Below, one piece after another: positions 6,156-36,209 of a DNA stretch of 38,600 nucleotides (the stretch's first letter is position 1; every line of letters begins with the position of its first letter). The position numbers were made by a program, and so were the translations under genes. The stretch is taken from IMG/VR virus record IMGVR_UViG_3300009157_000009, positions 1 to 38,600 of that record; one strand, written 5' to 3'. The stretch comes from a virus. Under the pieces are notes generated by a model. That model saw only the letters and a program-made list of their open reading frames with translations. It ran no database searches and was not told where the DNA came from.

Positions 6156-7800
6156 CTACTCCGAACTATTCCGCCAGAACCCTCAGCTGTTCGCGCAGGT
6201 GATGGCTTCGCTGTCTGGTGCGGTCGACTCGAGCACGGGCGCCGAGCAGCAGCAGCCGGTGGAGCCGCCTCCGCCCGTCGAGGCGCCGCCGCCGGTCCAG
6301 CAGGCGCCGCCCGTCGAGCCGATGCCCATGCAGGCGCCCGCCCCTGCGCCGCCGCCCGCGCAGGCCCAGCCCGTCCAGCCACCGCCCGCGCCCGAGCCAC
6401 CCCCGGTGGAGCCACCGCCGCCCGTCGAAGAGGTCGCGCCCGCCCCCACGGGCCCGGTCGACATGCGCGTCGCGGCGGACGCCGAGCGGCCCACAGGCTC
6501 GCTTGGCCAGCAGCAGGGGCAGCTCCTGGACGAGGACGTGGCCGCCGCGAACGAGGCGGGCGACAGCTTCGCGCGCGAGGGCGACGCCAAGGCGCTTGCC
6601 GCAAGCGAGGCCGCCAAGATCTACGGCACGCAGGCGGGCGTGGCGGACAGGTACGCCCGGGCCGCCGAGACGAACTACGCCAACCATCAGGACCGCGCCG
6701 CGCGCATGCGTCAGATGGAGGACGAGGACTTCGCGCGCCTGCAGCAGGAGCCGCCGAAGCCTGGCCACCTGAAGAACATCTTCAATGTGATCACGGGAAT
6801 CATCGGCGCAGCGGCGGGCGGCGAGCAGGGCGCGGCGATCGGCATGCTTCGCCAGCACGTAAACCGCCAGGCCGAGGAGGACGCGCAGGAGCGTGCCGCG
6901 GCTGAGAGGCGCATCGAGGTGTCGGGTAAGATCCAGGACCGCATCTTGCGCGACTCCTCGAACGAGTTCGATGCGGCGGCGAAGTTGGTGGCGGGTCAGT
7001 GGATCGTGGCGTCACGGCAGCTCGAGCAGGTGGCGAACGAGTCGAACGTGCCCGCCTTCCGCGAGCAGGCGCTCAGGCTATCCATCCAGGCCAAGGAGCA
7101 GGCGCGCGGCCTTCTGAAGCACAACGTGGAGACGCAGGTGCAGCAGGCTGCCGCCGCGCAGGCGGCCGAGGCCAAGGCGCGGGCGGGGGCCATGCGCACG
7201 CAATGGGACAAGCTCACGCAGCGCGACCTTGAGCTGCTAGCGTCGCAGGGCCTCTTGCCCATCGACGTCGCCAAGAAGCTTGCGGAGACGCAGAAGGCGC
7301 AGCGTGAGGCGCCGGGCGACGCGGCCAAGAGCCCACGCGCTGTCCCGGGTCGCGATGTGACGGACCCGGCGGCGTTCGCTTCCGCGCGTGACGTGGACAT
7401 CGCGAAGTTCCGCGAGACCGACGCCAAGATGCGGGCCCTTGGTAAGACATTGGACAAGCTCGACCAGAGCCTTGCAAAACACGGCACGGAGGCGTTTGGG
7501 GAGGAGGCGGCCAACATGGACGCGCTCGCCGCGTCTGCGCTCGGCACCATCAAGGACGTGAAGACGCTCGGCACGCTGGACAGCGGCCTGCTCACCTTCG
7601 GCGAGAAGCTCCTGGGCGACCCCACGAGCTGGTACAAGTCCGGCAGCTCCGTCCGCACGCGCATCAAGGCATCGCGCGAAGCGCTGCAGGAGGAGGTGGA
7701 GGCCATGGCCGAGGGCATCGGGCTCAGCCGTAAGGCCGAGACCACGGTGGACGACCAGGCCGCAGCGTTCGGCGCCGTGCCGCTGGCGGGCTCCCCCTGA
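6148..7800 (+). CDS. Internal virion protein with proline-rich linker
   Basis: This 550-residue protein starts with GTG at 6148, chosen because it restores the N-terminal tag shared with the preceding protein. Residues 1-25 hold the tag. Residues about 30-105 are a proline-rich linker (repeated PPPV and EPPP). The rest is long helical, charged sequence (residues 120-430) with a hydrophobic GIIGAAAG patch near residue 215. Long helical proteins of this kind in podovirus genomes are internal core or ejection proteins. No enzymatic motif is visible. It overlaps the next start by one base. Confidence 0.65.
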   Translation: MADYSELFRQNPQLFAQVMASLSGAVDSSTGAEQQQPVEPPPPVEAPPPVQQAPPVEPMPMQAPAPAPPPAQAQPVQPPPAPEPPPVEPPPPVEEVAPAPTGPVDMRVAADAERPTGSLGQQQGQLLDEDVAAANEAGDSFAREGDAKALAASEAAKIYGTQAGVADRYARAAETNYANHQDRAARMRQMEDEDFARLQQEPPKPGHLKNIFNVITGIIGAAAGGEQGAAIGMLRQHVNRQAEEDAQERAAAERRIEVSGKIQDRILRDSSNEFDAAAKLVAGQWIVASRQLEQVANESNVPAFREQALRLSIQAKEQARGLLKHNVETQVQQAAAAQAAEAKARAGAMRTQWDKLTQRDLELLASQGLLPIDVAKKLAETQKAQREAPGDAAKSPRAVPGRDVTDPAAFASARDVDIAKFRETDAKMRALGKTLDKLDQSLAKHGTEAFGEEAANMDALAASALGTIKDVKTLGTLDSGLLTFGEKLLGDPTSWYKSGSSVRTRIKASREALQEEVEAMAEGIGLSRKAETTVDDQAAAFGAVPLAGSP

Positions 7801-10619
7801 TGGCGACCCTTGCCATCATCGCGCCGGACGGGCGGACGTTCGACGTCCCGGAGGAGAACGTCCCGGCGGCGCTCGCCGCTGGCTGGAAGATGCCCGGTGC
7901 GCCCGCCCCGACACCGGCCGAGCCCGCGCCGCTTGCGCCCGCCGAAGTCGCGCCGCCCGCCCCTGTCGAGGCAGCCCCGCCGCCGGTGAACATGGTGCCG
8001 GTCAAGGCGCCAGACGGGCGCACGTTCAATATCCCCGAAACAAACCTTCAGGCCGCCATGGACGCGGGCTGGGAGCCTGAGGTCTCGCTCGGCCAGAAGA
8101 TTCGCACAGGCGCAGAAGGCCTCGCGCGCGGCGCATCCCTGGGCATCTCCGACGCCATCCAGTCGGTCGGCGCGGGCCTTGGCACAGCGCTCGGCGGCGC
8201 CCTGGCCGAGGACATTGGCGGCGTCCAGCCCATCACGACCACGCGTGGCGTCGGCGGCCCGGCCGAGCTCGAGCGGCCCCTGTACGACCCGGCCGCCGCC
8301 CGGGAGTCCCTGCAGGGCATCCGCACGCGCGAGACCGCGGCTCCCGGCATCGCAGGGGCCACAGGCGTCGCAGGCGCCATCCTGCCGGCGGTGCTGTCGG
8401 GCGGCACGAGCACGGCCGCGTCAGCTGCCCGGCTCACGCCTGCGGGCCTCACGAGCCTGCTGGGCGCCCGCGTACAGGCTCACCTGGCCCAGAAGGCGGG
8501 CACGGCGGCGCTCGGCCGTCTGGGCGCCCTGGCAGCCGGCGGCGCGGCCGAGGCGGGCGTGCAGAGTGCCACGGAGCGCGTGGTAGACGACTTGATCTCG
8601 GGCGACCACGAGATCAGCGCCGAGCGCATGCTGTCGGGCCTGGGCGGTGTGCTCGCAGACGCGGGCCTTGGCGCGCTCACGGGCGGCGTGATCGGCGGGG
8701 CCATCGAGGGCGGGCAGAAGGCCTACGGCGCCGTCCGGGGGCAGCTGGCGCGCCGGGCCGCAGGGAAGGCAGCCGAGGAGGCGGCCGAGGCTGCACCGTC
8801 GCTCACGTGGGACTTGTCGCTCGAGCCGGCGGCGGCGGCCGAGGCGGCGGGGCCCATGCTGGCGAAGGACCTGCCCTCGCTGGCAGACAACAGCAACTCG
8901 AGCATCGTGCAGGCCGCACGCGGGTCCGTGGACGGCTTCGAGGACGTGCAGCAGGGCGCCGTGCGCGGTATCCGCGACGACTACGATGACTTTCTGAAGC
9001 TGCGCGCGGACATCAACGGGCGCGCAAACATCGGAGCGAAGCGCGCGGACGCCATCAAGCTCACAGGCACGCCCGAGCAGGTGGCCGCGGCTCGCCAGGG
9101 CGCCAACGCGATGCTGGACGAGACCGAGATCGCCATTAAGACCATGACCGAGCTTGACGGCTTCAAGTCTGCGCTGGACGAGGGCGGCATGGCGGCCTTC
9201 AAGCGGGTCGAAGGCGCTGCAGACGAGGCGCGGAAGATCATCAACCAGAAACTGGACGAGGGCGAACTCGGCGAAGCGTTCATGGTGCTCGATGACTTCA
9301 AGCGCATCGTGGGGCGCGGGCAGAACACGCGGAACCGGTTCGCCAAGGACAAGCTCCGGGACATCTACGACCGCGTCGTGAAGCCAGCGGGCGAGGACGA
9401 GGCCGCGTGGGGCCAGCTGGCGGTGAACCAGAAGCGCGTCAACCCAGCGTGGGCCGAGTCCATCCGCCGGGACGGGGACGACGAGGTGCAGGCGTTCACG
9501 CGCAAGTCTGGCGAGCGCTCGCTGGACCCGTGGGAGGACCTCGAGCAGTCGAACAGCCACACGATCGGAACGTTTCTGAATGGTCTCGGCCAGGCAGAGA
9601 CCGAGGCCACGGAGATGGCGTTCCGCAAGCACCTGCGCGCCGCTGTCGTGGACGCCAAGACGCGTGCAGAGGTGTGGGGCACCCCCACGGACATCGCGCG
9701 CGCTGCGAAGATGACCGCAGCTGTGGAGCGCATCGAGAACCGCATGAACGCTGTGGCCTTCGCCGCCAAGGACAAGAAGGCCTGGGCGAAAGTCATGCGG
9801 TTCGCCCCCGGCACTGCGGGCGGCGTGCTGCAGGGCGCGGCCAAGCTCGGCCAGCTCACGCTCACCCCGATCCAGCGCATGGCCGACGCGGCCCTGAAGC
9901 AGCAGCAGTCCATCGAGAAGGCCGCGAAGAACGCGGGGCAGGTCCTGCTCGGCGCGGGCTCGCCCAAGGCGCTCCTCGCCACGATCAGCGTGGGCCGCGT
10001 GCAGGACGCGGTGGCCCAGGCGCAGGCGCTGCAGGACCCTGCCTCGCCCGAGTCTGGGCGCCTCCGGCAGGCCGTGAACGAGATCGGCCAGGACGACCCA
10101 GCCTTCGCGCAGGCCATGGACCAAAAACAGCGCCAGCAGTCGGCGTTCCTGGCCGAGAAGGCGGGCCCCGTAAGGGACGAGGGCGACCCGTTCGCCACCG
10201 GGCCAGCGCCCCGCGACAAGGTGGCCGCGCAGCAGCTCGGCCGCTACGTGGCCGCCGTGGACGACCCGGGCGAAGCGCTCCTGCGCGTGTCCCAGGGCAT
10301 GGGGTCGGCGGAGGACCTGGAGGTGCTGCAGACGCTCTACCCGCGCATCTACGACGTCTGGGTCAAGCGGGTCCAGGAGCAGCTCAAGAGCGCCAAAAAG
10401 CCGCCGACGACTGCGCAGCGCCAGCACCTGCACCGCGCCACCGGCGTGCCCCTGTCCCGCGAACAGCAGCCGGGCGCGCTCCCATTCCTGCAGCGGGTCG
10501 GGAACGCCCCCGCCGACACGGAACAGCCGCCCCCGCCGGCGTCGGGCAAGGGCATGGACATCGACCCGGAGAAGCACTTTGGGTCACGCAGTGACCAGAT
10601 CTTGGCAGGTGGCGAATGA
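7800..10619 (+). CDS. Large internal virion protein with two N-terminal DGRTF repeats
   Basis: This protein has 939 residues. Two copies of a 23-residue module (APDGRTF-x-x-P-E...AGW) lie at residues 8-30 and 70-92, split by a Pro/Ala-rich linker. A glycine- and alanine-rich region that could insert in a membrane follows (about 100-320, with GAGLGTALGGALA and repeated G-x-x-x-G). Long charged helices fill the rest. By position, length and make-up it resembles podovirus ejection proteins of the T7 gp16 or P22 gp20 kind. I saw no lytic transglycosylase signature. Its stop overlaps the large terminase start (ATGA). Confidence 0.65.
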   Translation: MATLAIIAPDGRTFDVPEENVPAALAAGWKMPGAPAPTPAEPAPLAPAEVAPPAPVEAAPPPVNMVPVKAPDGRTFNIPETNLQAAMDAGWEPEVSLGQKIRTGAEGLARGASLGISDAIQSVGAGLGTALGGALAEDIGGVQPITTTRGVGGPAELERPLYDPAAARESLQGIRTRETAAPGIAGATGVAGAILPAVLSGGTSTAASAARLTPAGLTSLLGARVQAHLAQKAGTAALGRLGALAAGGAAEAGVQSATERVVDDLISGDHEISAERMLSGLGGVLADAGLGALTGGVIGGAIEGGQKAYGAVRGQLARRAAGKAAEEAAEAAPSLTWDLSLEPAAAAEAAGPMLAKDLPSLADNSNSSIVQAARGSVDGFEDVQQGAVRGIRDDYDDFLKLRADINGRANIGAKRADAIKLTGTPEQVAAARQGANAMLDETEIAIKTMTELDGFKSALDEGGMAAFKRVEGAADEARKIINQKLDEGELGEAFMVLDDFKRIVGRGQNTRNRFAKDKLRDIYDRVVKPAGEDEAAWGQLAVNQKRVNPAWAESIRRDGDDEVQAFTRKSGERSLDPWEDLEQSNSHTIGTFLNGLGQAETEATEMAFRKHLRAAVVDAKTRAEVWGTPTDIARAAKMTAAVERIENRMNAVAFAAKDKKAWAKVMRFAPGTAGGVLQGAAKLGQLTLTPIQRMADAALKQQQSIEKAAKNAGQVLLGAGSPKALLATISVGRVQDAVAQAQALQDPASPESGRLRQAVNEIGQDDPAFAQAMDQKQRQQSAFLAEKAGPVRDEGDPFATGPAPRDKVAAQQLGRYVAAVDDPGEALLRVSQGMGSAEDLEVLQTLYPRIYDVWVKRVQEQLKSAKKPPTTAQRQHLHRATGVPLSREQQPGALPFLQRVGNAPADTEQPPPPASGKGMDIDPEKHFGSRSDQILAGGE

Positions 10620-14047: not shown

Positions 14048-14066
14048 CCACCTGGCGGGGAGATTA

Positions 14067-14085
14067 ATGTAGACGCTGTCTACAT
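14067..14085 (+). promoter_or_regulatory. Perfect 17-bp dyad TGTAGAC-GCT-GTCTACA (island operator, left end)
   Basis: The palindrome at 14068-14084 has 7-base arms and a 3-base centre. A context of 20 bases, AATGTAGACGCTGTCTACAT, recurs in reverse complement at 17594-17613. It lies upstream of the lipoprotein gene and 20 bases after the last virion gene. It is a likely binding site for a dimeric regulator and belongs to the dyad family spread over 14.07-17.65 kb. Confidence 0.7.
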
Positions 14086-14145
14086 GGCGACAGCTGGCGG
14101 CTCGCCACCGCCCGGGGTGATACGATCGCCCGGGAGGAGGCGATC

Positions 14146-14496
14146 ATGCGCGCGTGGGGGCTGTGGGCTGTGCTGGCGCTGGCAGGAGTAGGCTGCGCGC
14201 CGAAGATCACGTCAGGCGGCATCGAGGTCTACGAGAGCGTCTGGGAGCGGACCGACCGCGACCTGCGCTACCGGGCGGCCATGGAGCTGCGGTGCGACCA
14301 CGACATCGTGCGGCTGACGCTCGTGCAGCGGCAGGGCAAGTTCCCCGTCCTCGTGCACGCGGAGGGCTGCGGCGCCCAGGCGCTCTACAGCCGGCAGTTG
14401 AGGCGCCACCACGGCCAGTACACGGACAAGAACTCGGACTGGCTGGTGGAGTCGAAGAGCGCCGCCGAGCAGCCTGCGCTGAGCCAGTACCCGTAG
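14146..14496 (+). CDS. Lipoprotein, Myxococcota-like GCG-motif type
   Basis: This 116-residue protein has a lipoprotein signal peptide: a hydrophobic run GLWAVLALAGVG and Cys17 as the likely lipidated residue. The mature part has the pattern MELRCDHDIVRLTLV ... HAEGCGAQALY. An ELxC...GCGxxAxY arrangement is frequent in myxobacterial lipoproteins (established pattern; the match here is by eye). RBS GGAGGA at 14132-14137. It has its own upstream dyad, so it may be expressed apart from the virion genes and may change the lysogen's surface (for example superinfection exclusion). That role is inference. Confidence 0.75.
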   Translation: MRAWGLWAVLALAGVGCAPKITSGGIEVYESVWERTDRDLRYRAAMELRCDHDIVRLTLVQRQGKFPVLVHAEGCGAQALYSRQLRRHHGQYTDKNSDWLVESKSAAEQPALSQYP

Positions 14497-14535
14497 CAGT
14501 CAGTTCACCAGCCAGCGCGCGGCAGCTGCAGCGGC

Positions 14536-14757
14536 CTAGTTCGCCCGCCCGTCGAAGCGCAGCGCGGGCTGGCCGTTGAGCGTGTCGCCGCGCACGTCCT
14601 CGAACTCCATGGCGATGCGCCCGACCAGCACGGGCACGGTGCGGCGGCAGCTCGGGCACCATCCGGCCGACACGCCGCTCACGAGCGTCCTGTCGAGTGG
14701 CAGGTCGGGCCATGGGTCGGCCATGGGGGCGTCGCAGTACGCGCAGCGAGCAGACAT
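14536..14757 (-). CDS. Small zinc-ribbon protein
   Basis: This 73-residue protein has two CxxC pairs, C5-AY-C8 and C34-PS-C37, which should hold one zinc ion in a ribbon or knuckle. The C-terminal half is a short beta-rich tail. It is the last leftward gene and faces the lipoprotein gene across a 39-base gap with no clear terminator. Its upstream gap carries one member of the dyad family (14796-14812). Its function is unknown; nucleic acid or protein binding is plausible. Confidence 0.65.
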   Translation of the reverse strand: MSARCAYCDAPMADPWPDLPLDRTLVSGVSAGWCPSCRRTVPVLVGRIAMEFEDVRGDTLNGQPALRFDGRAN

Positions 14758-14795
14758 GCGCGTGATTCTAGCGCGGCCTCCGCCGGGCAGCCGAA

Positions 14796-14812
14796 TGTTA
14801 CCACCGCAAACA
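14796..14812. promoter_or_regulatory. Dyad TGTTACC-ACC-GCAAACA upstream of zinc-ribbon gene
   Basis: This is a 17-bp imperfect dyad flanked by CGGGCAGC on the left, matching the family found at 15281-15297, 16051-16067 and 17630-17646. It lies 39 bases upstream of the leftward start at 14757. Confidence 0.55.
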
Positions 14813-14819
14813 TGTGCGC

Positions 14820-15005
14820 TCAGTCCGACAGGCAGCGCGCGCGCACGTACTCGGCCACGCTGTCGCAGCCTGCCGCCTTGGCACGCTGCTGCAGGGCCGC
14901 GTGCTCGGCGGCGGTGAGCTTGATCCGCAGGCTGTGGTCCGCCACGGTGCCGTCTGCGGTGCGCGCGCGGCGACCTGGGGGCTGACCGGTGGGCTTGCGC
15001 GCCAT
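14820..15005 (-). CDS. Ribbon-helix-helix-like DNA-binding protein
   Basis: This protein has 61 residues. A basic N-terminal arm (residues 1-24) is followed by a strand (HSLRIKL) and two helices (TAAEHAALQQRAKAAG, then CDSVAEYVRARCLSD). That is the order and length of the ribbon-helix-helix fold (CopG or MobC-type). ATG at 15005 overlaps the upstream stop, so it is coupled to the gene at 15005-15247. A small regulator of the surrounding dyads is possible, though these proteins usually bind shorter sites. Confidence 0.6.
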   Translation of the reverse strand: MARKPTGQPPGRRARTADGTVADHSLRIKLTAAEHAALQQRAKAAGCDSVAEYVRARCLSD

Positions 15006-15247
15006 CAGTCGGCCCGGTCGACGATGGCGCAGACCGCGCTCACGTACTCGGCCCACTCGACCTCGCTCGTTGCGTCTTCGCAGCCGTCCACGCAATGCGC
15101 CAGGAGCTGCTGCCGCGTGCTCAGCCCGCTCCGGAGCGCCTCCACGTCGTTGGCTACCTCGCGCGAGCCCATGCCTGCCATCTCGAGCCTGCGCGCCACG
15201 TCCGCACTCAGCGCTACTCCGCCGATCACCACGTCACCGTTCGCCAT
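15005..15247 (-). CDS. Hypothetical small protein upstream of RHH gene
   Basis: This protein has 80 residues. The ATG at 15247 has an excellent AGGAGGAG ribosome site, so the longer in-frame reading is not used. It is helical and acidic with Cys residues in HCVDGCEDA; no family was recognised. It forms a two-gene operon with the RHH-like gene (stop and start overlap). The pair of dyads at 15281-15344 lies directly upstream, suggesting tight control. A two-gene toxin-antitoxin-like layout is possible but unproven. Confidence 0.6.
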   Translation of the reverse strand: MANGDVVIGGVALSADVARRLEMAGMGSREVANDVEALRSGLSTRQQLLAHCVDGCEDATSEVEWAEYVSAVCAIVDRAD

Positions 15248-15280
15248 GATTTCTCTCCTCCTGCCCGCCGGGCAGCTTAA

Positions 15281-15344
15281 TGTTGACACCGCAAACACCT
15301 ACCTGTGCGCGCTTCCGGGCCGCCGAATGTTACACCCACTCACA
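15281..15344. promoter_or_regulatory. Paired dyads upstream of the RHH operon
   Basis: Two sites occur: TGTTGAC-ACC-GCAAACA at 15281-15297 and the weaker TGTTACACCCACTCACA at 15328-15344. Their left ends are 47 bases apart. The same pair, in reverse orientation and with the same 47-base offset, occurs at 16004-16067. The first is followed by CACCTACCTGT, as in the other copy. Confidence 0.6.
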
Positions 15345-15385
15345 TCGACCTGTGTGCGAGCCGCGCCGCCCGTGGGCGACCGCCC

Positions 15386-15553
15386 TCAGCGGGCCTTGTA
15401 GGCGTCGCGCATCGCCAGGGCGACCGTGAGGCGGTCCGCGTTCGAGAGCCCCGCCTTGGCCACCTGTGCGTCCAGGGCGGCCATCGCCTTCATGCGGGCC
15501 ATCGGGGTCGTGAGGGTCGAAATCTTGCGGGCGGCGGTGAGGAGCTTCGTCAT
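15386..15553 (-). CDS. Tiny helical protein
   Basis: This protein has 55 residues: MTKLLTAARKIST, then a predicted helix rich in Ala and Met (MARMKAMAALDAQVAKAG) and a second (NADRLTVALAMRDAYKAR). It is basic and has no membrane segment. It is transcribed alone from the promoter at 15601-15629. No family was recognised. Another tiny Ala-rich protein to the right has an almost identical promoter, suggesting the two are controlled together. Confidence 0.55.
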   Translation of the reverse strand: MTKLLTAARKISTLTTPMARMKAMAALDAQVAKAGLSNADRLTVALAMRDAYKAR

Positions 15554-15600
15554 GGTCGGTCTTCTTTCTTCCGGGGTCGTCTCGTCCGCCCCACAAGATA

Positions 15601-15643
15601 AGAATAGCGCGGTGCCAGTTGAGTGTCCACGCAAATCGACACT
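15601..15643 (-). promoter_or_regulatory. Leftward promoter with dyad over the -35
   Basis: On the minus strand there is a -35 TGGACA (15629-15624), a 17-base spacer and a -10 TATTCT (15606-15601). A 6-base inverted repeat, AGTGTC...GACACT (15622-15643), covers the -35 box. The segment from GCGTGGACACTCAACT to CTTGTG is repeated in the next promoter to the right. Confidence 0.6.
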
Positions 15644-15683
15644 GGGCAGTGCGAATCTCAGAAGCCCTCGAGGGCCAGGCCCA

Positions 15684-15869
15684 TCAGGCGTACACCGCGA
15701 AGCCGGCGGCGGTGAGGGCGGACTCGAGGACCATCTTGGCGCGGCGGATGGGCAGCTCGTCCGTCTTGGCGGCGCGCAGGCTGGGGCGGTAGCCCTTGGC
15801 GCAGGCGGCGGCGAGCTCGGCGTAGGTGGCGAAGGCGGTGGCGAGGGCGGCGGCGGTGTTCTTGTTCAT
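15684..15869 (-). CDS. Tiny Ala-rich helical protein behind a C9/G9 tract
   Basis: This 61-residue protein starts with ATG at 15869. It is Ala-rich (MNKNTAAALATAFATYAELAAACAKG) with a second, more basic helix ending in GFAVYA. It has no signal peptide and no clear Shine-Dalgarno. Its leader holds a run of nine G on the plus strand (15890-15898). It is transcribed alone from the promoter at 15923-15951. Its function is unknown. Confidence 0.55.
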   Translation of the reverse strand: MNKNTAAALATAFATYAELAAACAKGYRPSLRAAKTDELPIRRAKMVLESALTAAGFAVYA

Positions 15870-15922
15870 GGTCTCGGCTTCTCTTTCTCGGGGGGGGGCG
15901 GCGTCTCGCCCTCACAAGAAAC

Positions 15923-15951
15923 AGTATGACCCGGGGAGAGTTGAGTGTCCA
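15923..15951 (-). promoter_or_regulatory. Leftward promoter, twin of the one at 15601-15629
   Basis: On the minus strand there is a -35 TGGACA (15951-15946), 17 bases, and a -10 CATACT (15928-15923). The -35 region GCGTGGACACTCAACT is identical to that of the neighbouring promoter, and the early transcribed region (CTTGTG..GGGCG) is also shared. Confidence 0.55.
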
Positions 15952-16003
15952 CGCATCATGCACCGTCTCATGTCGATTTTGCGGGCGGTGTGCGCCGAGT
16001 AGG

Positions 16004-16067
16004 TGTTTCTGCGTGTAACATCCGTCGGGCGGCGGCGTCGGACAGGTAGGTGTTTACGACGGTAACA
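16004..16067. promoter_or_regulatory. Paired dyads, inverted copy of the 15281-15344 pair
   Basis: TGTTTCTGCGTGTAACA lies at 16004-16020 and TGTTTAC-GAC-GGTAACA at 16051-16067. Read on the minus strand, the order, the 47-base offset and the AAACACCTACCTGT flank repeat those of 15281-15344. Confidence 0.6.
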
Positions 16068-16086
16068 TTAAGGTCCCGCGAATCTG

Positions 16087-16605
16087 TCAGCCGGGGTTGG
16101 CAAACTCTCCGTGCAAGCGCGCGGCAGCTGCGCAGTAGGCCCGGTGGGCGTCCTCGGCGTCTCTGTACAGACCCAGCTGGCGCTTGCGGCCATGCGCGAC
16201 GATGCGGGCTTCCCATTTCCCGCAGTGGGCAACCCACACGACGCCCTTGTAGCCCGACGAGTTGCGCTTGCCGCGGCGCTTGTTTTGCGCGTTCTGGGCG
16301 TTCGTCGCCAGCCTCAGGTTGGCGCGCCTGTTGTCGAGCGGCTCGCCGTTGCGGTGGTCGACCTCCAGCTCGGCTGGCGCAGACAGGAGCGCTCGGTGTA
16401 GGCGCACCGTCCTCTGCGTGTCGCCGCCGTAGTCCGTGCGCACGGCGTACCAGTCGTTGTGGGGACCGCGGTACGCACACCAGCTCCACTGGCCAACCCA
16501 CGCCGCGTCAGCGCTGTCGACAAGCGACGTCTTCCCGCGCGTCAGGATGACGGTGTGCGTGCCGTCGCCGTTGTCGGCAAGAGGCCTTGCTGGCTTGCTG
16601 CGCAT
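16087..16605 (-). CDS. HNH endonuclease with AP2-like DNA-binding tail (homing-type)
   Basis: This protein has 172 residues. The HNH core spans about residues 65-103, with RLH at H70, VDHRNGE with H84, and N92/N96 in DNRRANLRLAT. Residues 116-165 (SSGYKGVVWV...KWEARI...LGLYRDAEDAHRAY) form an AP2-like DNA-binding domain. This HNH plus AP2 pairing is typical of free-standing phage homing endonucleases. It stands as a single gene between two dyad-bearing gaps. It probably nicks or cuts a phage or competitor site, helping its own spread. Confidence 0.85.
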   Translation of the reverse strand: MRSKPARPLADNGDGTHTVILTRGKTSLVDSADAAWVGQWSWCAYRGPHNDWYAVRTDYGGDTQRTVRLHRALLSAPAELEVDHRNGEPLDNRRANLRLATNAQNAQNKRRGKRNSSGYKGVVWVAHCGKWEARIVAHGRKRQLGLYRDAEDAHRAYCAAAARLHGEFANPG

Positions 16606-16636
16606 GCTCCACTCCGGATGTGTTTACGGCGGCGGC

Positions 16637-16948
16637 TCAGCGCAACGCAGCCTCGATGCGCGCCAGCGTGTCGATGGCAGGCCCGTCGCCGTGGGTGAGC
16701 GCCTCCCGCACGCGCTCGAGCGTCGCCAGGGCGGCGTCGCGGTCGCGCTTCTGCGTGAGCAGCACGTCGCGCTGGTCAGACACGAGCTGCTCGGCGCGGT
16801 TCCGCTCGTCCACGAGGCGTGCGATGGACCGCTCGTCAGCGACGTGGCCCGCCTCCAGCTCGGCCACGCGGGCGCGCAGGGTGGCGAGCTCGGCCCGCAG
16901 CTCTGCGTTCTCGCGCTCAGCGTTCTGCCAGATGTGGCTCATGCTCAT
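16637..16948 (-). CDS. Coiled-coil protein coupled to the exported protein
   Basis: This 103-residue protein starts with ATG at 16948 (or 16942), overlapping the upstream stop as ATGA. Residues 8-70 are a strong heptad coiled coil (NAERENAELRAELATLRARVAELEAG). No signal peptide or membrane segment is present. It is coupled to the exported Cys-rich protein. A spanin role is not supported, because it lacks a membrane anchor. A long upstream reading overlaps its neighbour and is not used. Confidence 0.6.
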   Translation of the reverse strand: MSMSHIWQNAERENAELRAELATLRARVAELEAGHVADERSIARLVDERNRAEQLVSDQRDVLLTQKRDRDAALATLERVREALTHGDGPAIDTLARIEAALR

Positions 16949-17580
16949 GGCGGCGCGGGGTTGTCCGCGCACTGGTTGTTCTGCGTCAACGCGAACACGT
17001 CGAGGAACGGCGCGATCGTGAACGGCACACACGCCGCCCGGGTCGCCGCGGTCGCGAAAAAGGTGGCATCGCATGCGTCCTGGAACGCCTCGCCGCACGC
17101 GTCCGTGGCGAGCCGCTCGAACAGGTCGGCCAGGCCCAGCCCGCCGAGGGCGATGGAGAGGTCGCAGTACAGCTGCGCCGAGATCTCGCCGATGAACTCG
17201 CCGTCAGCGATGCACGCGTCGTTGACGCAGGTGTCCTGCAGGTCGGTCACCTCGGCAACCAGGCCGGCGACCTGGCCGAGCACGTGACAGCGGACAGCGT
17301 CCGACACATCGGGCGGCACCACGATGCCATCGGCGATCGACACCACGGTCACCTGCAGCTCCGTGATGGCGTCGGGGTCGGCGCAGATATCGGCCGTGTC
17401 GAGCGTGGCGATGGCCTGCTCGGCCAGGCTGCGGCCCTTGCGCACGCCGAGCAGGAAGAACCTGACCTCGCGCACGGAGTCGCAGACAGCGGGGGCGGTC
17501 TGGGCGGCGGCGGGGGTTGGCGCGAGCGCGAAGCACGCGCACAGGGTGGTGATGATGAGCAGCGGGATGAACGGTCGCAT
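16945..17580 (-). CDS. Secreted or periplasmic Cys-rich protein
   Basis: This 211-residue protein has a clear Sec signal peptide (MRPFIPLLIITTLCACFALAPTPAAAQ, cut after about residue 26). The mature part is acidic and contains about 11 cysteines (for example CDSV, DICAD, RCHV, DTCVNDAC, LYCD, DACGEAFQDAC), so disulfide bonds are likely. No enzyme motif was recognised. RBS AGGAGG lies just upstream. Two dyads (17595-17646) sit in its promoter region. A surface or periplasmic lysogenic-conversion factor is a guess; the neighbouring lipoprotein gene fits such a theme. Confidence 0.65.
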   Translation of the reverse strand: MRPFIPLLIITTLCACFALAPTPAAAQTAPAVCDSVREVRFFLLGVRKGRSLAEQAIATLDTADICADPDAITELQVTVVSIADGIVVPPDVSDAVRCHVLGQVAGLVAEVTDLQDTCVNDACIADGEFIGEISAQLYCDLSIALGGLGLADLFERLATDACGEAFQDACDATFFATAATRAACVPFTIAPFLDVFALTQNNQCADNPAPP

Positions 17581-17594
17581 GGGGGAACCTCCTG

Positions 17595-17646
17595 ATGTAG
17601 ACAGCGTCTACATTCGCTTGGCCGAGAGAAGTTTACAGTGCCAACA
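17595..17646. promoter_or_regulatory. Operator pair upstream of the exported-protein operon (island right end)
   Basis: A perfect dyad TGTAGAC-AGC-GTCTACA lies at 17596-17612 (inverse copy of 14068-14084). A second, weaker dyad AGTTTAC-AGT-GCCAACA at 17630-17646 is followed by ATTAAGCTGCCCG, the common flank. Together they fill most of the 93-base gap before the exported-protein gene. Confidence 0.65.
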
Positions 17647-17673
17647 TTAAGCTGCCCGAAGTTTGGCGCGCAG

Positions 17674-18876: not shown

Positions 18877-19139
18877 CGGCGCCTCCCGTCGTTGTCGGGT
18901 CGGACGTAGGCGAGGCCTCGCGGCACCAGGCGCAGGCGGCGCTCGGCGCGTGCGACGTCGAGGGCTGTGGGGCGCTCGAGGGCGTCAGGGTGATGCGCGT
19001 CAGCCTTGGTTCCGAGCAGCGCCGAAACCTGCTGCGATTCCGCATGGTTTGGCGCTCTTACCCGCGGCTTCGTAATGCGCAGGTCAGGAATTCGAGTTTC
19101 CTTCCGGGCTCCCAATGATTCCGATAACTTATCAGTCAC
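18870..19139 (-). CDS. Doubtful small gene reading through attP
   Basis: This reading frame has 89 codons from ATG 19139. Residues about 9-28 (GARKETRIPDLRITKPRVRA) are the antisense translation of the tRNA-like attP core, a well-known false-protein signature. The C-terminal part (about residues 45-89) ends in a stop overlapping the next start, as real genes here do. A shorter real gene, or a gene whose N-terminus changes on integration, is possible. Confidence 0.25.
   Translation of the reverse strand: MTDKLSESLGARKETRIPDLRITKPRVRAPNHAESQQVSALLGTKADAHHPDALERPTALDVARAERRLRLVPRGLAYVRPDNDGRRRW
19066..19114 (+). other. attP: Putative attP core: 3' half of a tRNA-Thr(CGT)-like sequence
   Basis: On the plus strand an anticodon-loop-like TTCGTAA (anticodon CGT at 19071-19073) is followed by a perfect T-arm: stem AGGAA (19086-19090), loop TTCGAGT, stem TTCCT (19098-19102). 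Next come an acceptor 3' strand TCCGGGC (19103-19109) and TCCCA. No matching 5' half is nearby, so this is a tRNA fragment. It lies 43 bases past the integrase stop, the usual place for attP. Exact core ends need the host tRNA gene. Confidence 0.7.
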
Positions 19140-19157: not shown

Positions 19158-20543
19158 TCACCCCTCATCACCTTTTGCACCACTCTTCGCCATCGCCTTG
19201 AGCGCCGCCTTGGATTCCTTGGCGGCGCGTCGAGCGAGTATGCCGAGCGCGAGCATGTACCGCTCTGTGGCGTCCGAGTCCTGGTGCCCGAGCTGGCTCT
19301 GGACCTCCTCGCGCGACCACTCCCGCCCGCCCGTGAAGAGGGGCGTGCCGAGCAAGAGGTGGCAGGCGCAGGTGTGCCGGAGGGCGTAAAGCGGGACGTC
19401 TCGCTTGATGCCGAGCTTCGACCGCCAGCCGGGCGTGACCGTGAGCTCGCCCTTGCTCTGGCGCTTCTCCCCGTAGAGACGGCGCAGGTGCTTGGCCTGG
19501 TGGCCGTTGACGCTCGCCTTCTTTGGCCGCGTGGAGTCGGCGCTGAGTGAGCCGTCCTCGGTGTTGTCGACCCACCAGGTCCGGGTCCGGCGCTCCTTCT
19601 TGTCCTGCCAGCCGCCGTCGTAGTCGCGCGCGTAGATCCGCTCGGTGCCGTCCCGGTTCTTGCCGGCGGGGAAGATGAGCCCCTTCGTCGGCCGGCCGCT
19701 GGCAAGCCACCACTCCTTCAGGACGGCGAGCAGCTGGGGCAGCGGGTGCACCGTGTAGTCGTGGTTCTCAAGGCTCGAGGTCTTTGTGCTCGTGAACCGG
19801 ATCGTCTCGGCAAGCCAGTCCACGCACTCCCACCGCACGTGCCACACGTCCCTCGGTCGAGCGCCCGCCACCATCAACATCACGAACATGGCTTTGCGGA
19901 GCAGGGGCAGACGTCCGGACGGTGCCTCGAGAATCTTGCGCGTCTCGTCTTCGCGCAGGTAGTCCAGGATGTTGCGGTTCGTCTTGAGCTTCACCTCGGT
20001 GCACTCGCTGATCTTCACGTGCTTGGCCGGGTTGTGCGTCACGTACTCGCGCTCTGGCATCGCGCCCCAGCGGTACACGCGACGCACAAGCGACAGCGCG
20101 CTTGCGAGCGTCGGGCGCGTAGGGATCTCGCCCGCGCTCGCTCCGCTCTTGATGGGCGTCTTTGCCATCTGCGCGATCCACACGCGGACGTGGCGCTCGT
20201 TTACCTGGGTGGCGGGAAAGTTTGCGAACTCGGCCGTCTCGACGACACGATACCGCCAGCGGTCGATGTCCTTGTCCCCCGTGAGACACATGTACCCCAT
20301 CTGCGCGACGGTGAGAATGCCGGGGTCCATGCGAACCTGGGCGCCCGTCTCCTTCGCCTTCTCGGCGCGCGCCTCGTAGTAGGCGTGGCGCAGGGCCACC
20401 GCTTCCTCGAACGTGTCGCGGGTGCCAAGCGATTGTTGCTGGCCGTCAATCTTGACGAGCGCCTGGTAGCGCGTCGTGCCATTGGCGAGCTTCGTCTCGC
20501 GAATGCCGCGAGGTTTCTTGGGGGCTTTGGGCTTGCGCGGCAT
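19158..20543 (-). CDS. int: Tyrosine recombinase (integrase)
   Basis: This 461-residue protein has an N-terminal arm- and core-binding part (residues 1-190). The catalytic domain holds box I Arg229 (VAGARPRDVW), Lys254 (TSTKT), box II YALRHT with Arg389 and His390, His420 (SQLGHQ) and the nucleophile Tyr429 (TERYM). The first His of the HxxR motif is Tyr386, a known variant. It catalyses site-specific integration and excision, probably at tRNA-Thr using the attP next to its 3' end. A small gene ends one base before its start region (TAA at 20545), so the two are likely coupled. No excisionase was recognised. Confidence 0.93.
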   Translation of the reverse strand: MPRKPKAPKKPRGIRETKLANGTTRYQALVKIDGQQQSLGTRDTFEEAVALRHAYYEARAEKAKETGAQVRMDPGILTVAQMGYMCLTGDKDIDRWRYRVVETAEFANFPATQVNERHVRVWIAQMAKTPIKSGASAGEIPTRPTLASALSLVRRVYRWGAMPEREYVTHNPAKHVKISECTEVKLKTNRNILDYLREDETRKILEAPSGRLPLLRKAMFVMLMVAGARPRDVWHVRWECVDWLAETIRFTSTKTSSLENHDYTVHPLPQLLAVLKEWWLASGRPTKGLIFPAGKNRDGTERIYARDYDGGWQDKKERRTRTWWVDNTEDGSLSADSTRPKKASVNGHQAKHLRRLYGEKRQSKGELTVTPGWRSKLGIKRDVPLYALRHTCACHLLLGTPLFTGGREWSREEVQSQLGHQDSDATERYMLALGILARRAAKESKAALKAMAKSGAKGDEG

Positions 20544-25914: not shown

Positions 25915-26418
25915 TCACCGCTTCGCAGTCCCTGCCTTACGGCGTTTTTTGCTCGGCGGCGGCTCGGGCAGCGGCGGCATGGCGTCCAGCTCGGCGTTGA
26001 GCTGGAGCGCGTCCATGACCTGCTGGTCCGACCAATACCCCATCATCACCAGCGCGAGCATGCGGTACAGCTGGCGCGTCGGGACCTTCCCGCCTGCGAA
26101 CGTCATGCGCTCCAGGGTGCGGATGATGTGATCTTCGGCCGTCCCCGCGACAGGGTCGCGAAGAAACTGCTCAAACTCCTGACGGGCGGCGCGCTCGCGA
26201 TTTGCGGTGTCGTTCTGCTCGTCAAAGTAATCAGGGTCGACGCCCAGGATCTGGGCCACGCGCGCTTGACGTTCGGGGGTGAACGCCGTCTTCCGGCTCA
26301 CGAAGAGCGCGTAGTAACCCTGGTAGCCATGCTTATATCCGAGGGCGCTCCCAAGCTCGGACGCTGTCATGCCCTTTTCCGCCAGCTTGGCGTCGACCTT
26401 TTCCTGAAGCGTTGCCAT
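25915..26418 (-). CDS. CI-like repressor, XRE-type helix-turn-helix
   Basis: This 167-residue protein has an N-terminal HTH (residues 3-65: LQEKVDAKLAEKGMTASELGSALGY ... TPERQARVAQILGVDPDYF), a middle helical region (about 75-145) and a basic tail (PPSKKRRKAGTAKR). There is no S24 protease domain, so induction would not be by RecA-style self-cleavage. It is divergent from the cro-like gene. The start at 26418 is chosen over the ATG at 26457; there is no Shine-Dalgarno, and a palindrome abuts the ATG, allowing self-repression. It is the best candidate for the lysogeny repressor. Confidence 0.8.
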   Translation of the reverse strand: MATLQEKVDAKLAEKGMTASELGSALGYKHGYQGYYALFVSRKTAFTPERQARVAQILGVDPDYFDEQNDTANRERAARQEFEQFLRDPVAGTAEDHIIRTLERMTFAGGKVPTRQLYRMLALVMMGYWSDQQVMDALQLNAELDAMPPLPEPPPSKKRRKAGTAKR

Positions 26419-26436
26419 GTCTTGCGACCGCAAGAC
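26419..26436. promoter_or_regulatory. Operator GTCTTGC-GACC-GCAAGAC at the CI-like start
   Basis: This perfect inverted repeat with 7-base arms begins at the base next to ATG 26418. A shorter related dyad, CTTG-T-CAAG, lies at 26518-26526, near the cro-side promoter. Both are likely binding sites of CI-like or Cro-like protein. A bound protein would stop expression of the CI-like gene at or before translation start. Confidence 0.6.
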
Positions 26437-26512
26437 TGACGCAGGCATAAATAGCATTGCAATATAGCGAATACCCTACCGTACCGCCTGTGGCAATCGG
26501 TTTCCGGCACCT

Positions 26513-26542
26513 TTAGACTTGTCAAGCGAGCCGGATTACTAT
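26513..26542 (+). promoter_or_regulatory. Rightward early promoter (PR-like) for the cro-like gene
   Basis: TTAGAC (26513-26518), 18 bases and TACTAT (26537-26542) make a plausible sigma-70-type promoter. The CTTGTCAAG dyad falls between the boxes. The ATG at 26556 would be 6-8 bases from the transcript start, with no Shine-Dalgarno. Confidence 0.5.
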
Positions 26543-26555
26543 ACCCGTCACCTAT

Positions 26556-26801
26556 ATGCGTTCACCGCGGCGTACACGGACGGCGTTTGGGGTGTGGGTT
26601 CGGGAGCAGCCGCGGGGGGCCCTTACCCGCGCCCACTACGCCACGGGTCTGGCCTACAGCACGGTCTTCGCAGCCCAGTTCAAGCTGATGCGCCGCGACG
26701 TTGCGTACGAGCTTTCGCGCTTCACGCGAGGCGCCGTGCGTGTCGCCGACATTGCGACGCCGCGCCGCGGTGAGGCCCTGGCCCAGAAAGCGGCCTCGTG
26801 A
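26556..26801 (+). CDS. Cro-like HTH repressor
   Basis: This 81-residue protein is divergent from the CI-like gene. Residues 11-67 (FGVWVREQ...HYATGLAYSTVFAAQFKLMRRDVAYELSRFTRGAVRVADIA) match the Cro/YdaS style of HTH, whose final A-x-x-I/L-x-x-x-T-x-G-x-V-x-x-x-x-I part is distinctive. It should compete with the CI-like protein for operators in 26,419-26,555 and favour lytic growth. There is no Shine-Dalgarno, so initiation may be leaderless or nearly so. The stop overlaps a possible GTG, but the following 438 bases look non-coding. Confidence 0.7.
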   Translation: MRSPRRTRTAFGVWVREQPRGALTRAHYATGLAYSTVFAAQFKLMRRDVAYELSRFTRGAVRVADIATPRRGEALAQKAAS

Positions 26802-34322: not shown

Positions 34323-36209
34323 ATGGACTACGGCGACACGCAGCGGCGAGCAGAGTTCTGGTGGGACGCCCCGAAGGGCGCGGTGGGCATGGCGGTCATC
34401 CGCATGGCCGACAGCATCGTGAACCAGCAGCGCGCCCAGCGGGAGGACACGCGCTTCTACATGGACTTGTGCAGCAACTCCAACACCGCGGGCAATGACA
34501 CCTACGCGCTGCTCTCGAACGGGAAGCGCTGGGGGTGGGACCGTAAGATGAGGCAAAACATCTGCGCGGCGGGCGTCGACACGGCGTCCTCGCTCATCGC
34601 GCAGAACCGTACCGCGCCCATGTACCTGACGAGCCTGGGCGACTTCACGCTGTCGCGGAAGGCCGAGCAGCGCTCGCGAGTCTTGCACAGTCAGTTCTAC
34701 GACCTCGGTATCTACCGCAACATGCCCGAGGCGTGGCGCGACGGCGGGGAGACGGGCACGGGCCACCTCTGCGGCTGCGTGCGCAACGGGCGGCCGTACG
34801 TCGAGCGCTGCCTGCCGAACGAAGTGCTGGTCGATGACATGGACGGCCGCTATCGCTCGCCGCGCTCCATGTACCGAGTGCACTTCGTGGCGCGGGAGCA
34901 GCTCCGAAAGCTGTACAAGGACGCGGAGGGCATCAAGGAAAGCGGCGGGCCGTCTGCCCACGACTACATCGACTTCAACTTGCGCACGGACGCGTGCGTG
35001 GACCGCGTGCGCGTCCTTGAGGCCTGGCACCTGCCCAGCGTCTCGGGTGGCGACGACGGGCGGCACGTCATCTGCACAGACAAGGTGGTGCTCCGAGACG
35101 AACTCTGGACGCGTGACCGCTTCCCGTTCGTCCGCCTCACCTATGCGGAGCGGCGCATCGGCTACTACGGGCAGGGGCTGTGCGAGCGGCTTGCGGGCGC
35201 CCAGATCCAGCTCAACGAAGTGAACGACACCATTCGTGACTGCCAGCGACTCCTAAGCAACGCGATGATCTGGACCGACGAGAATGACACCCTCGCGTGG
35301 GAGGAGCTCACGAACATGCCCGGGCAGCATCTGCAGTCCCGCGTGCCACCGCAGCTCTTGCGCTGGGAGGCGACACCGGGCGACCTGTTCCGGGAGCGTC
35401 AGGTCATCAAAGAAGACGCCTTCGACCAGGAGGGCCTGTCCGCCTCCATGATCTCCGGCGACGGCGGCAGCGCCGGCCTCTCGAGCGGCCGTGCCATCCG
35501 CGCGGAGGACGACGTGCGCTCGCGGCGTCACATCGACCCCACGCGCCGGCTCGAGTACGCGTACCTCGACGTCACGCAGCTGATCAGCGACCTCAACGAC
35601 GAGTGTGCCGAGCTTGACCCGGACTACGTGGTCACGGGGCGCGCGCGGTTCGGGCGTCAGACCTTCCTGCGCACCAGCAAGTGGAAAGAGCTCGAGCTGC
35701 CGGACGGGGACGTCAGGGTGAATATGTTCCCCATGGCAGCCCTCCCGACCACGGTGCAGGGCAAGTTCGCCGCGGTGGACGAGTGGATCCAGGGGGGCTT
35801 TGTGAGCCGGCCCCAGGCGCTCGACCTGATGGAGTTCCCCGATATCGACGCGTGGCAGCAGCTCGAGAATGCCAACATCGACCTCGTACGCTGGCAAATC
35901 GAACGGCTGCTGGACTTGGCCGAGGGCGAGCCGGGCGAGTTGCCGATCGAAAACCAGGACATCCCCATGGCCGTGAAGTTCATCAACCAAGCCTTTCTGG
36001 TCGCCTACCGCATGCAGGCGCCCGCCCACGTGCAGCTCGCGTTCCAGACGTACTTGGCCTACGCGAAGCAGCTCACGGACAAGCTCGCCGCGGAGGAGGC
36101 CGCCCAGGCGGCGCCCCCGCCCGAGTCCATGGGCCCCGCCGCCCTGGACCAGAACGCCGCCGCCGCGGCCCAGCTCGCCGCTCCGCCGGCAGGAGGGATG
36201 GCAGCATGA
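34323..36209 (+). CDS. Portal (head-tail connector) protein
   Basis: This 628-residue protein starts with ATG 34323 behind AAGGAGGA. It has typical podovirus portal features: long N-terminal helices, a central Arg- and Asn-rich clip and stem region (AGAQIQLNEVNDTIRDCQRLL), and RRHIDPTRRLEYAYLDVTQLISDLN, with a C-terminal helical, Ala-rich crown. It forms the dodecameric ring for DNA entry and exit. It lies directly before scaffold and capsid genes, the expected order. The scaffold start overlaps its stop. Confidence 0.8.
   Translation: MDYGDTQRRAEFWWDAPKGAVGMAVIRMADSIVNQQRAQREDTRFYMDLCSNSNTAGNDTYALLSNGKRWGWDRKMRQNICAAGVDTASSLIAQNRTAPMYLTSLGDFTLSRKAEQRSRVLHSQFYDLGIYRNMPEAWRDGGETGTGHLCGCVRNGRPYVERCLPNEVLVDDMDGRYRSPRSMYRVHFVAREQLRKLYKDAEGIKESGGPSAHDYIDFNLRTDACVDRVRVLEAWHLPSVSGGDDGRHVICTDKVVLRDELWTRDRFPFVRLTYAERRIGYYGQGLCERLAGAQIQLNEVNDTIRDCQRLLSNAMIWTDENDTLAWEELTNMPGQHLQSRVPPQLLRWEATPGDLFRERQVIKEDAFDQEGLSASMISGDGGSAGLSSGRAIRAEDDVRSRRHIDPTRRLEYAYLDVTQLISDLNDECAELDPDYVVTGRARFGRQTFLRTSKWKELELPDGDVRVNMFPMAALPTTVQGKFAAVDEWIQGGFVSRPQALDLMEFPDIDAWQQLENANIDLVRWQIERLLDLAEGEPGELPIENQDIPMAVKFINQAFLVAYRMQAPAHVQLAFQTYLAYAKQLTDKLAAEEAAQAAPPPESMGPAALDQNAAAAAQLAAPPAGGMAA

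Follow-up and report, generated by a model that had tools for sequence, protein, structure and literature searches.

A family of 17-bp inverted repeats (dyads) was analyzed in an island of small genes of a virus, IMG/VR record IMGVR_UViG_3300009157_000009 (G000); the window is this whole single record of 38,600 bases. Six strong copies of the dyad lie in the gaps of the island, and copies of the same family are conserved in five related phages. Judged from sequence and placement, the dyads are probably operators of accessory transcription units, set apart from the immunity switch. Since its opening 120 bases are repeated at the end of the record, the G000 genome is complete or nearly so. It encodes terminase, portal, capsid and a tyrosine integrase (19158-20543), and a CI-like gene (25915-26418) opposes a small cro-like open reading frame (ORF; 26556-26801). 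The integrase, the CI-like gene facing the cro-like ORF and the structural genes together indicate a temperate phage. The island is flanked by late genes on one side and by a tRNA-like 3' end (~19075-19113) beside the integrase on the other; it is between late genes and the integrase/attachment site that lysogenic-conversion genes are usually found. The dyads of the window (no strand assigned) are listed below, with scores from the relatives-only matrix described in the next section.

14066..14086, dyad AATGTAGACGCTGTCTACATG, 60 bp before the lipoprotein start; 30.9 bits; orthologous sites at G001 3251 and G002 25541
14794..14814, dyad AATGTTACCACCGCAAACATG, upstream of the zinc-ribbon gene and downstream of the ribbon-helix-helix (RHH) gene; 26.0 bits
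15279..15299, dyad AATGTTGACACCGCAAACACC, 31 bp before the p15005-RHH operon; 26.5 bits; at the matching point G001 has an additional dyad-plus-gene unit
15326..15346, weak partner copy, exactly 47 bp from 15279; 7.2 bits; +/-47 arrangement also in relatives
16002..16022, weak partner copy, exactly 47 bp from 16049; 9.6 bits
16049..16069, dyad GGTGTTTACGACGGTAACATT, with the HNH gene end on one side and the tiny gene 15684 promoter on the other; 22.7 bits
16619..16633, isolated half-site TGTTTACGGCGG, in the HNH leader; also in G001
17594..17614, dyad GATGTAGACAGCGTCTACATT, directly before the Shine-Dalgarno sequence of the exported-protein gene; 32.2 bits; aligned in G002 and G003
17628..17648, partner dyad GAAGTTTACAGTGCCAACATT, 34 bp from 17594; 29.1 bits

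Related phages and sequence of the dyads

IMG/VR was queried with the terminase, exported-protein, RHH, lipoprotein and tiny-protein sequences and with two dyad patterns. All queries converged on one small group, G001-G008, and those with the lipoprotein and tiny proteins yielded no additional relatives. Dyads were found in G001 (6.8 kb), G002 (36.5 kb), G003 (39.4 kb), G004 (36.7 kb) and G005 (37.1 kb), the last two being complete phages; none were found in G006 (48.8 kb) or in the short fragments G007 and G008. According to the 21-bp matrix, G000 to G006 contain 6, 5, 7, 10, 2, 1 and 0 strong copies, respectively (31 in six related phages).

Iterating the matrix across the window together with its relatives gave the 21-bp symmetric consensus RATGTWNNCRSYGNNWACATY, and no position beyond +/-10 of the dyad centre was well conserved. 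For testing, a 21-bp matrix was built from the relatives only, with duplicates of window sites removed. Its top six places in the window (21-mer starts 17594, 14066, 17628, 15279, 14794 and 16049) scored from 32.2 down to 22.7 bits, and the seventh-ranked place scored 13.2 bits. Shuffling the window 200 times (order 1) gave a mean maximum of 9.1 bits, and the highest score did not exceed 18.8 bits. All six strong copies are intergenic, in a window with a non-coding share of ~7%. With leave-one-genome-out matrices, every site in the six phages was recovered at 17.8-33.1 bits versus a background of at most 13.2 bits. The exact pattern TGTWNNCNNNGNNWACA occurs five times in the window; its counts in the six phages (G000 first) are 5, 4, 5, 7, 1 and 1, and the reversed control pattern gave zero, in the window as elsewhere.

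All sequences listed in the initial annotation were present where it had placed them, including the half-site at 16621, and its statement that no copies occur elsewhere in the 38.5 kb was borne out. It had counted at least seven copies and a weaker one at 15328; six of the seven are strong, and the copy at 16004 is weak as well. The copies at 15328 and 16004 are too weak if taken alone, and their support comes from the 47-bp spacing to a strong copy. Such weak +/-47 partners are seen again in relatives, including G001, at a background probability of a score >=6 of 1.2e-4 per position. Paired sites are frequent, typically with a spacing of 32-34 or 46-47 bp; across G000-G003, the spacings cover 32-34 and 46-51 bp. 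The flank CGGGCAGC, described earlier as shared by the gaps, is not part of the site; it is one arm of the hairpin CTGCCCGGCGGGCAG, which follows some copies.

The half-sites come from a single pool and combine freely (GTAGAC, GTTGAC, GTTTAC, GTTACC, GTTTGC and others). Hybrids of TGTAGAC and TGTTNAC halves, such as TGTAGGCGCTGTCAACA, occur in relatives, so the two apparent classes are one family. For 26 distinct sites, the complementarity of the two halves was 160 versus 165.9 +/- 5.2 for randomly paired half-sites. Halves that vary freely within one pool, without covariation, are characteristic of a DNA site recognized by a dimeric protein and not of an RNA hairpin.

Accessory genes and placement of the dyads

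The genes of the island are as follows.

14146..14496, plus strand, lipoprotein gene, 116 amino acids (aa), from its translation; homologues in every dyad-bearing relative
14536..14757, minus strand, zinc-ribbon gene, 73 aa, from its translation; the G004 homologue sits behind a dyad
14820..15005, minus strand, RHH protein, NikA/MobC-like (PF21983, 4e-8, above cut-off); only in G000-G003
15005..15247, minus strand, 80-aa gene ahead of the RHH gene in one operon, from its translation; no family match
15386..15553, minus strand, tiny gene (55 aa) with its own dyad-free promoter at 15629-15601
15684..15869, minus strand, tiny Ala-rich gene (61 aa) with its own dyad-free promoter at 15951-15923
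16087..16605, minus strand, HNH endonuclease gene (PF13392, 2.6e-10; phrog_99, 3.6e-37)
16945..17580, minus strand, exported-protein gene, 211 aa, first gene behind the 17594/17628 pair; homologues in G001, G002, G003, G005 and G006

In the window, the sites precede the lipoprotein, exported-protein, zinc-ribbon and p15005-RHH genes; in relatives, they also precede p16637-like genes (G003-G005) and a ParE/Unstab_antitox operon (G003). The same orthologous genes are preceded by sites in different phages. The results support the initial annotation in describing one dimer-type operator family that is confined to the island and stands ahead of several separate transcription units, and the arrangement extends to the relatives. 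At the exported-protein gene, the dyad pair and the leader are conserved in three phages and everything upstream differs, so that promoter and control must lie there; both copies fall inside this short conserved promoter/leader stretch, which favors repression, although the scan showed no consensus promoter within it. The homology of G003 with the window stops at the outer edge of dyad 17628. Dyad 14794 is retained at G001 2793 and G002 25991 despite the absence of the zinc-ribbon gene from both phages, and dyad-plus-leader modules are conserved while the genes on both sides differ. The half-dyad at 16619-16633 suggests that the HNH gene entered a dyad-bearing gap.

The claim that each small unit has its own operator is contradicted by the two tiny Ala/Lys-rich genes. 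Their promoters are the two strong sigma-70-type promoters of the island (TGGACA-N17-TATTCT or CATACT; two found versus 0.1 expected), near-identical twins at 15601-15629 and 15923-15951 (GTGGACACTCAACT...TATTCT/CATACT...CTTGTGGG) that are dyad-free and conserved in four phages. The RHH gene and the gene at 16637 lie inside longer operons. In G002, the second of the twin promoters drives a different gene. In G003 (L017), a ParE toxin and an Unstab_antitox antitoxin are encoded behind a dyad pair (9275-9870), and the ParE frame extends across dyads 9363 and 9317, giving the impression of a replaced 3' end. PADLOC reported nothing of weight.

Several observations weigh against an operator function. 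In the consensus scan, no consensus sigma-70 promoter overlaps any dyad. Some sites precede no gene (G003 9317/9363, between convergent genes; G001 2793, in its direction), and the orientation of the site relative to the gene varies. Finally, the complete phages G004 and G005 have no recognizable RHH gene, yet carry 2 and 1 strong sites. The copies in these two phages may be either recently acquired remnants or sites bound by a host factor or another phage protein.

Independence from immunity

The CI-like proteins of the relatives are unrelated or ~30% identical, and the CI-like gene of the window has a 30% homologue in one relative only. No dyad copy was found near the immunity control region of the window (26418-26556). 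A second 17-bp dyad, TCATGCCATTGGCATGA, was found in G003 (38784 and 37396) and G004 (26557), with the form TCATGACAGCGTCATGA in G005 (17645). In G003-G005 it takes up the spacer between the -35 and -10 elements of the lipoprotein promoter, and it is also present in the CI/cro region of G003. The lipoprotein gene has been rewired: its TGT dyads in G000-G002 give way to the TCATG dyad in G003-G005. In G002, the dyad CATATCCCACGGATATG occupies an immunity-type position (34934) and CATATCCGTCGGGTATG lies in the intergenic stretch near 36045; both are probable immunity operators of this phage.

The TGT dyad is unchanged across phages with differing immunity genes and immunity-type dyads and is therefore not the immunity operator; the sites are absent from the repressor region and do not co-vary with the repressor. 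The CI-like protein, one of three binders proposed in the initial annotation, was rejected on these grounds. The second, the NUMOD4-HTH protein, was also rejected, its gene being private to the window with no counterpart in any relative. The third, the RHH protein, is retained as a candidate.

Candidate regulators

The RHH protein is the best phage-encoded candidate for the binder. Its gene occurs in each of the four phages that have 5-10 sites (G000-G003), is confined to them and always lies within a dyad-preceded unit. A tentative reading, somewhat short of an even chance, is that the protein of 14820-15005 is the regulator, binding each dyad as two RHH dimers and autoregulating its operon through the site at 15281 or its orthologue. 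It agrees with the GTNNAC pseudo-symmetry within each half-site and with the TAGA-N5-TCTA present inside the 21 bp of the perfect copies, a length equal to that of the Arc operator, the 21-bp "TAGA box" (PMC12645479). A MobC RHH protein is a proven autorepressor that acts at an imperfect palindrome between -35 and -10 (PMC4175270). Because MobC-type RHH proteins repress at imperfect palindromes and Arc reads a 21-bp box, the RHH protein stays a fair candidate. The strong sites kept in G004 and G005 speak against it, as do a weak RHH-like ORF in G006, which has no dyads, and the fact that most copies do not keep the TAGA box. The dyad sequence shows no identity with the RA3 MobC operator. No such sites were found in L030, a distant RHH match.

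A somewhat less likely reading is that the dyads are bound by a global regulator of the host; the accessory genes would then follow host physiology in prophages of any immunity type. The sites are conserved in phages with unrelated immunity genes, and copies stay strong in phages with one or two sites and no RHH gene, as such a regulator would lead one to expect. On the other hand, no prophage or similar module was found in the genomes, plasmids and cultured phages searched: the terminase, used as a single and as an aligned query for a host or prophage, had no match in 84,980 genomes, none of the bacterial genomes searched had a relative of the island, and plasmids and cultured phages gave only a 38-bp chance match. 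Sequences resembling tRNA 3' ends adjoin the integrase in the window (19075-19113) and in G003 (6738-6778); these are probably the cores of the phage attachment site (attP) and could point to the host. Binding by another phage protein is the least likely of the three.

Alternative roles of the dyads

It is improbable that the dyads serve mainly as recombination seams, that is, as short repeats for cassette exchange similar to the T4 promoter-stem-loop elements or as targets of a recombinase. Cassettes are indeed gained and lost right at dyads: G001 has an extra unit between two dyads, the HNH gene is replaced by another gene in G002, and dyad G001 2793 stays where the zinc-ribbon gene is absent. 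However, block ends of the island fall within 15 bp of a dyad in 26 of 66 cases, against 26.4 expected for random intergenic positions, so that breakpoints are not enriched at dyads over other gaps, and no recombinase except the integrase was noticed. A site-specific recombination role was rejected accordingly. A bidirectional promoter (CGGRCA ~18 bp from WACAT on both sides) was also rejected, flank conservation being too weak (0.2-0.3 bits).

That the dyads act as RNA hairpins, either terminators or leader structures, is most improbable: the two perfect copies can form 7-8 bp stems and one leader beats shuffles in folding (z -3.1), but at three of four places transcripts with dyads folded no better than shuffled ones, mismatches at +/-3 to 5 and a missing T-run mark most copies, and the lack of compensatory changes between the halves largely refutes this role.

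Comparison with known systems

The initial annotation knew of no system of this form, but a close analogue has been published, namely, the ESAS of cluster K mycobacteriophages, which are paired imperfect 17-bp repeats upstream of non-structural genes (Pope 2011, PMC3203893). In Pixie and TM4, each 17-bp ESAS repeat is itself a dyad with TGTTGA half-sites (PMC3203893), and ESAS were later read as a putative promoter plus an inverted repeat under a possible regulator (PMC11373665). Both families consist of repeated 17-bp dyads, paired and intergenic, before a subset of small non-structural genes, and share the TGTTGA half-site. They differ in geometry, since Pixie has TGTTGA-N4-TCAACA copies 27-28 bp apart, whereas the spacer here is N5 and the copies are 32-34 or 46-47 bp apart. 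The Pixie dyads contain a SigA-like promoter and are followed by the 13-bp SAS; here, the SAS is absent and no clear promoter was seen. The consensus scan gave only the two dyad-free promoters, the WACAT dyad ends resemble only poor -10 elements, and the SAS GGGATAGGAGCCC had no match in the window at up to two mismatches. The present matrix, run on the Pixie right arm, gave no match >=12 bits and found none of its ESAS. ESAS are the closest described system; the present family is of the same kind, with a different sequence and geometry, but is not a member of it.

Other resemblances are more distant. The operators of BPs gp33 (PMC4557955) likewise combine two related palindromes, of which one is degenerate, across a spacer of variable length, and occur at several intergenic loci; however, these are 12-bp CGACATATGTCG palindromes separated by 5-8 bp, and it is the immunity repressor that binds them, whereas here sites and immunity vary independently. 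The P1 C1 operators (22 dispersed 17-bp sites, PMC8546580) and the L5-type stoperators also represent many copies of one regulator site, but they are asymmetric and bound by the immunity repressor, whereas the present sites are symmetric, lie within ~3.6 kb and are immunity-independent. The stoperator analogy drawn in the initial annotation is not supported, the sites also facing both ways relative to genes. The 13-bp asymmetric L5-type stoperator GGTGGMTGTCAAG had two window matches at two mismatches versus 1.5 expected, which is no excess. The T4-type promoter-stem-loop (PeSL) shuffling cassettes (Arbiol 2010, cited in PMC3950731) are similar in being repeated intergenic regulatory modules between swapped genes; no promoter-terminator composite was seen here, and breakpoints keep to the random expectation. 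Arc/MobC RHH operators share the 21-bp or imperfect palindromic form for RHH dimers (PMC4175270 for the MobC autorepressor), but the TAGA box is found here only in perfect copies.

A scan of IMG/VR for paired dyads gave two new records. L032 was dismissed as a chance match in AT-rich coding DNA. In L033, an unrelated phage, an HNH gene is preceded by a pair of a distinct kind (TGTTGCCAATGGNWACA); at 225-281, the pair TGTTGCCAATGGAAACA / TGTAGCCATTGGCAACA lies between helix-turn-helix (HTH) and HNH genes, in a similar arrangement with its own sequence.

Proposed mechanism and significance

We infer that a protein binds the dyads and that its effect is repression. A homodimeric DNA-binding protein, or two RHH dimers, would read the ATGTWNNC half-sites around the 3-bp centre, often at two neighboring copies. 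The bound sites would fall in or beside the regions where accessory transcription units adjoining the prophage attachment site begin. The regulator would most likely act as a repressor, and the expression of lysogeny-associated genes (lipoprotein, exported protein, zinc ribbon and the RHH operon) would be set separately from the immunity switch; in one relative, a ParDE-type toxin-antitoxin operon would come under the same control.

The usual view of accessory (moron) genes in temperate phages is that they have private promoters or follow the immunity switch. As a tentative proposal, with rather less than an even chance of being correct, the dyads may define an immunity-independent accessory-gene regulon, in which phages of different immunity share one operator code for lysogenic-conversion genes. 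One regulator could then control the accessory genes of all co-resident prophages, and new genes would become controlled by arriving beside a dyad. If this is true, an operator code that outlives changes of immunity would represent a separate layer of prophage control, would explain how incoming cassettes come under regulation and would offer a handle on the ESAS-like elements of cluster K mycobacteriophages.

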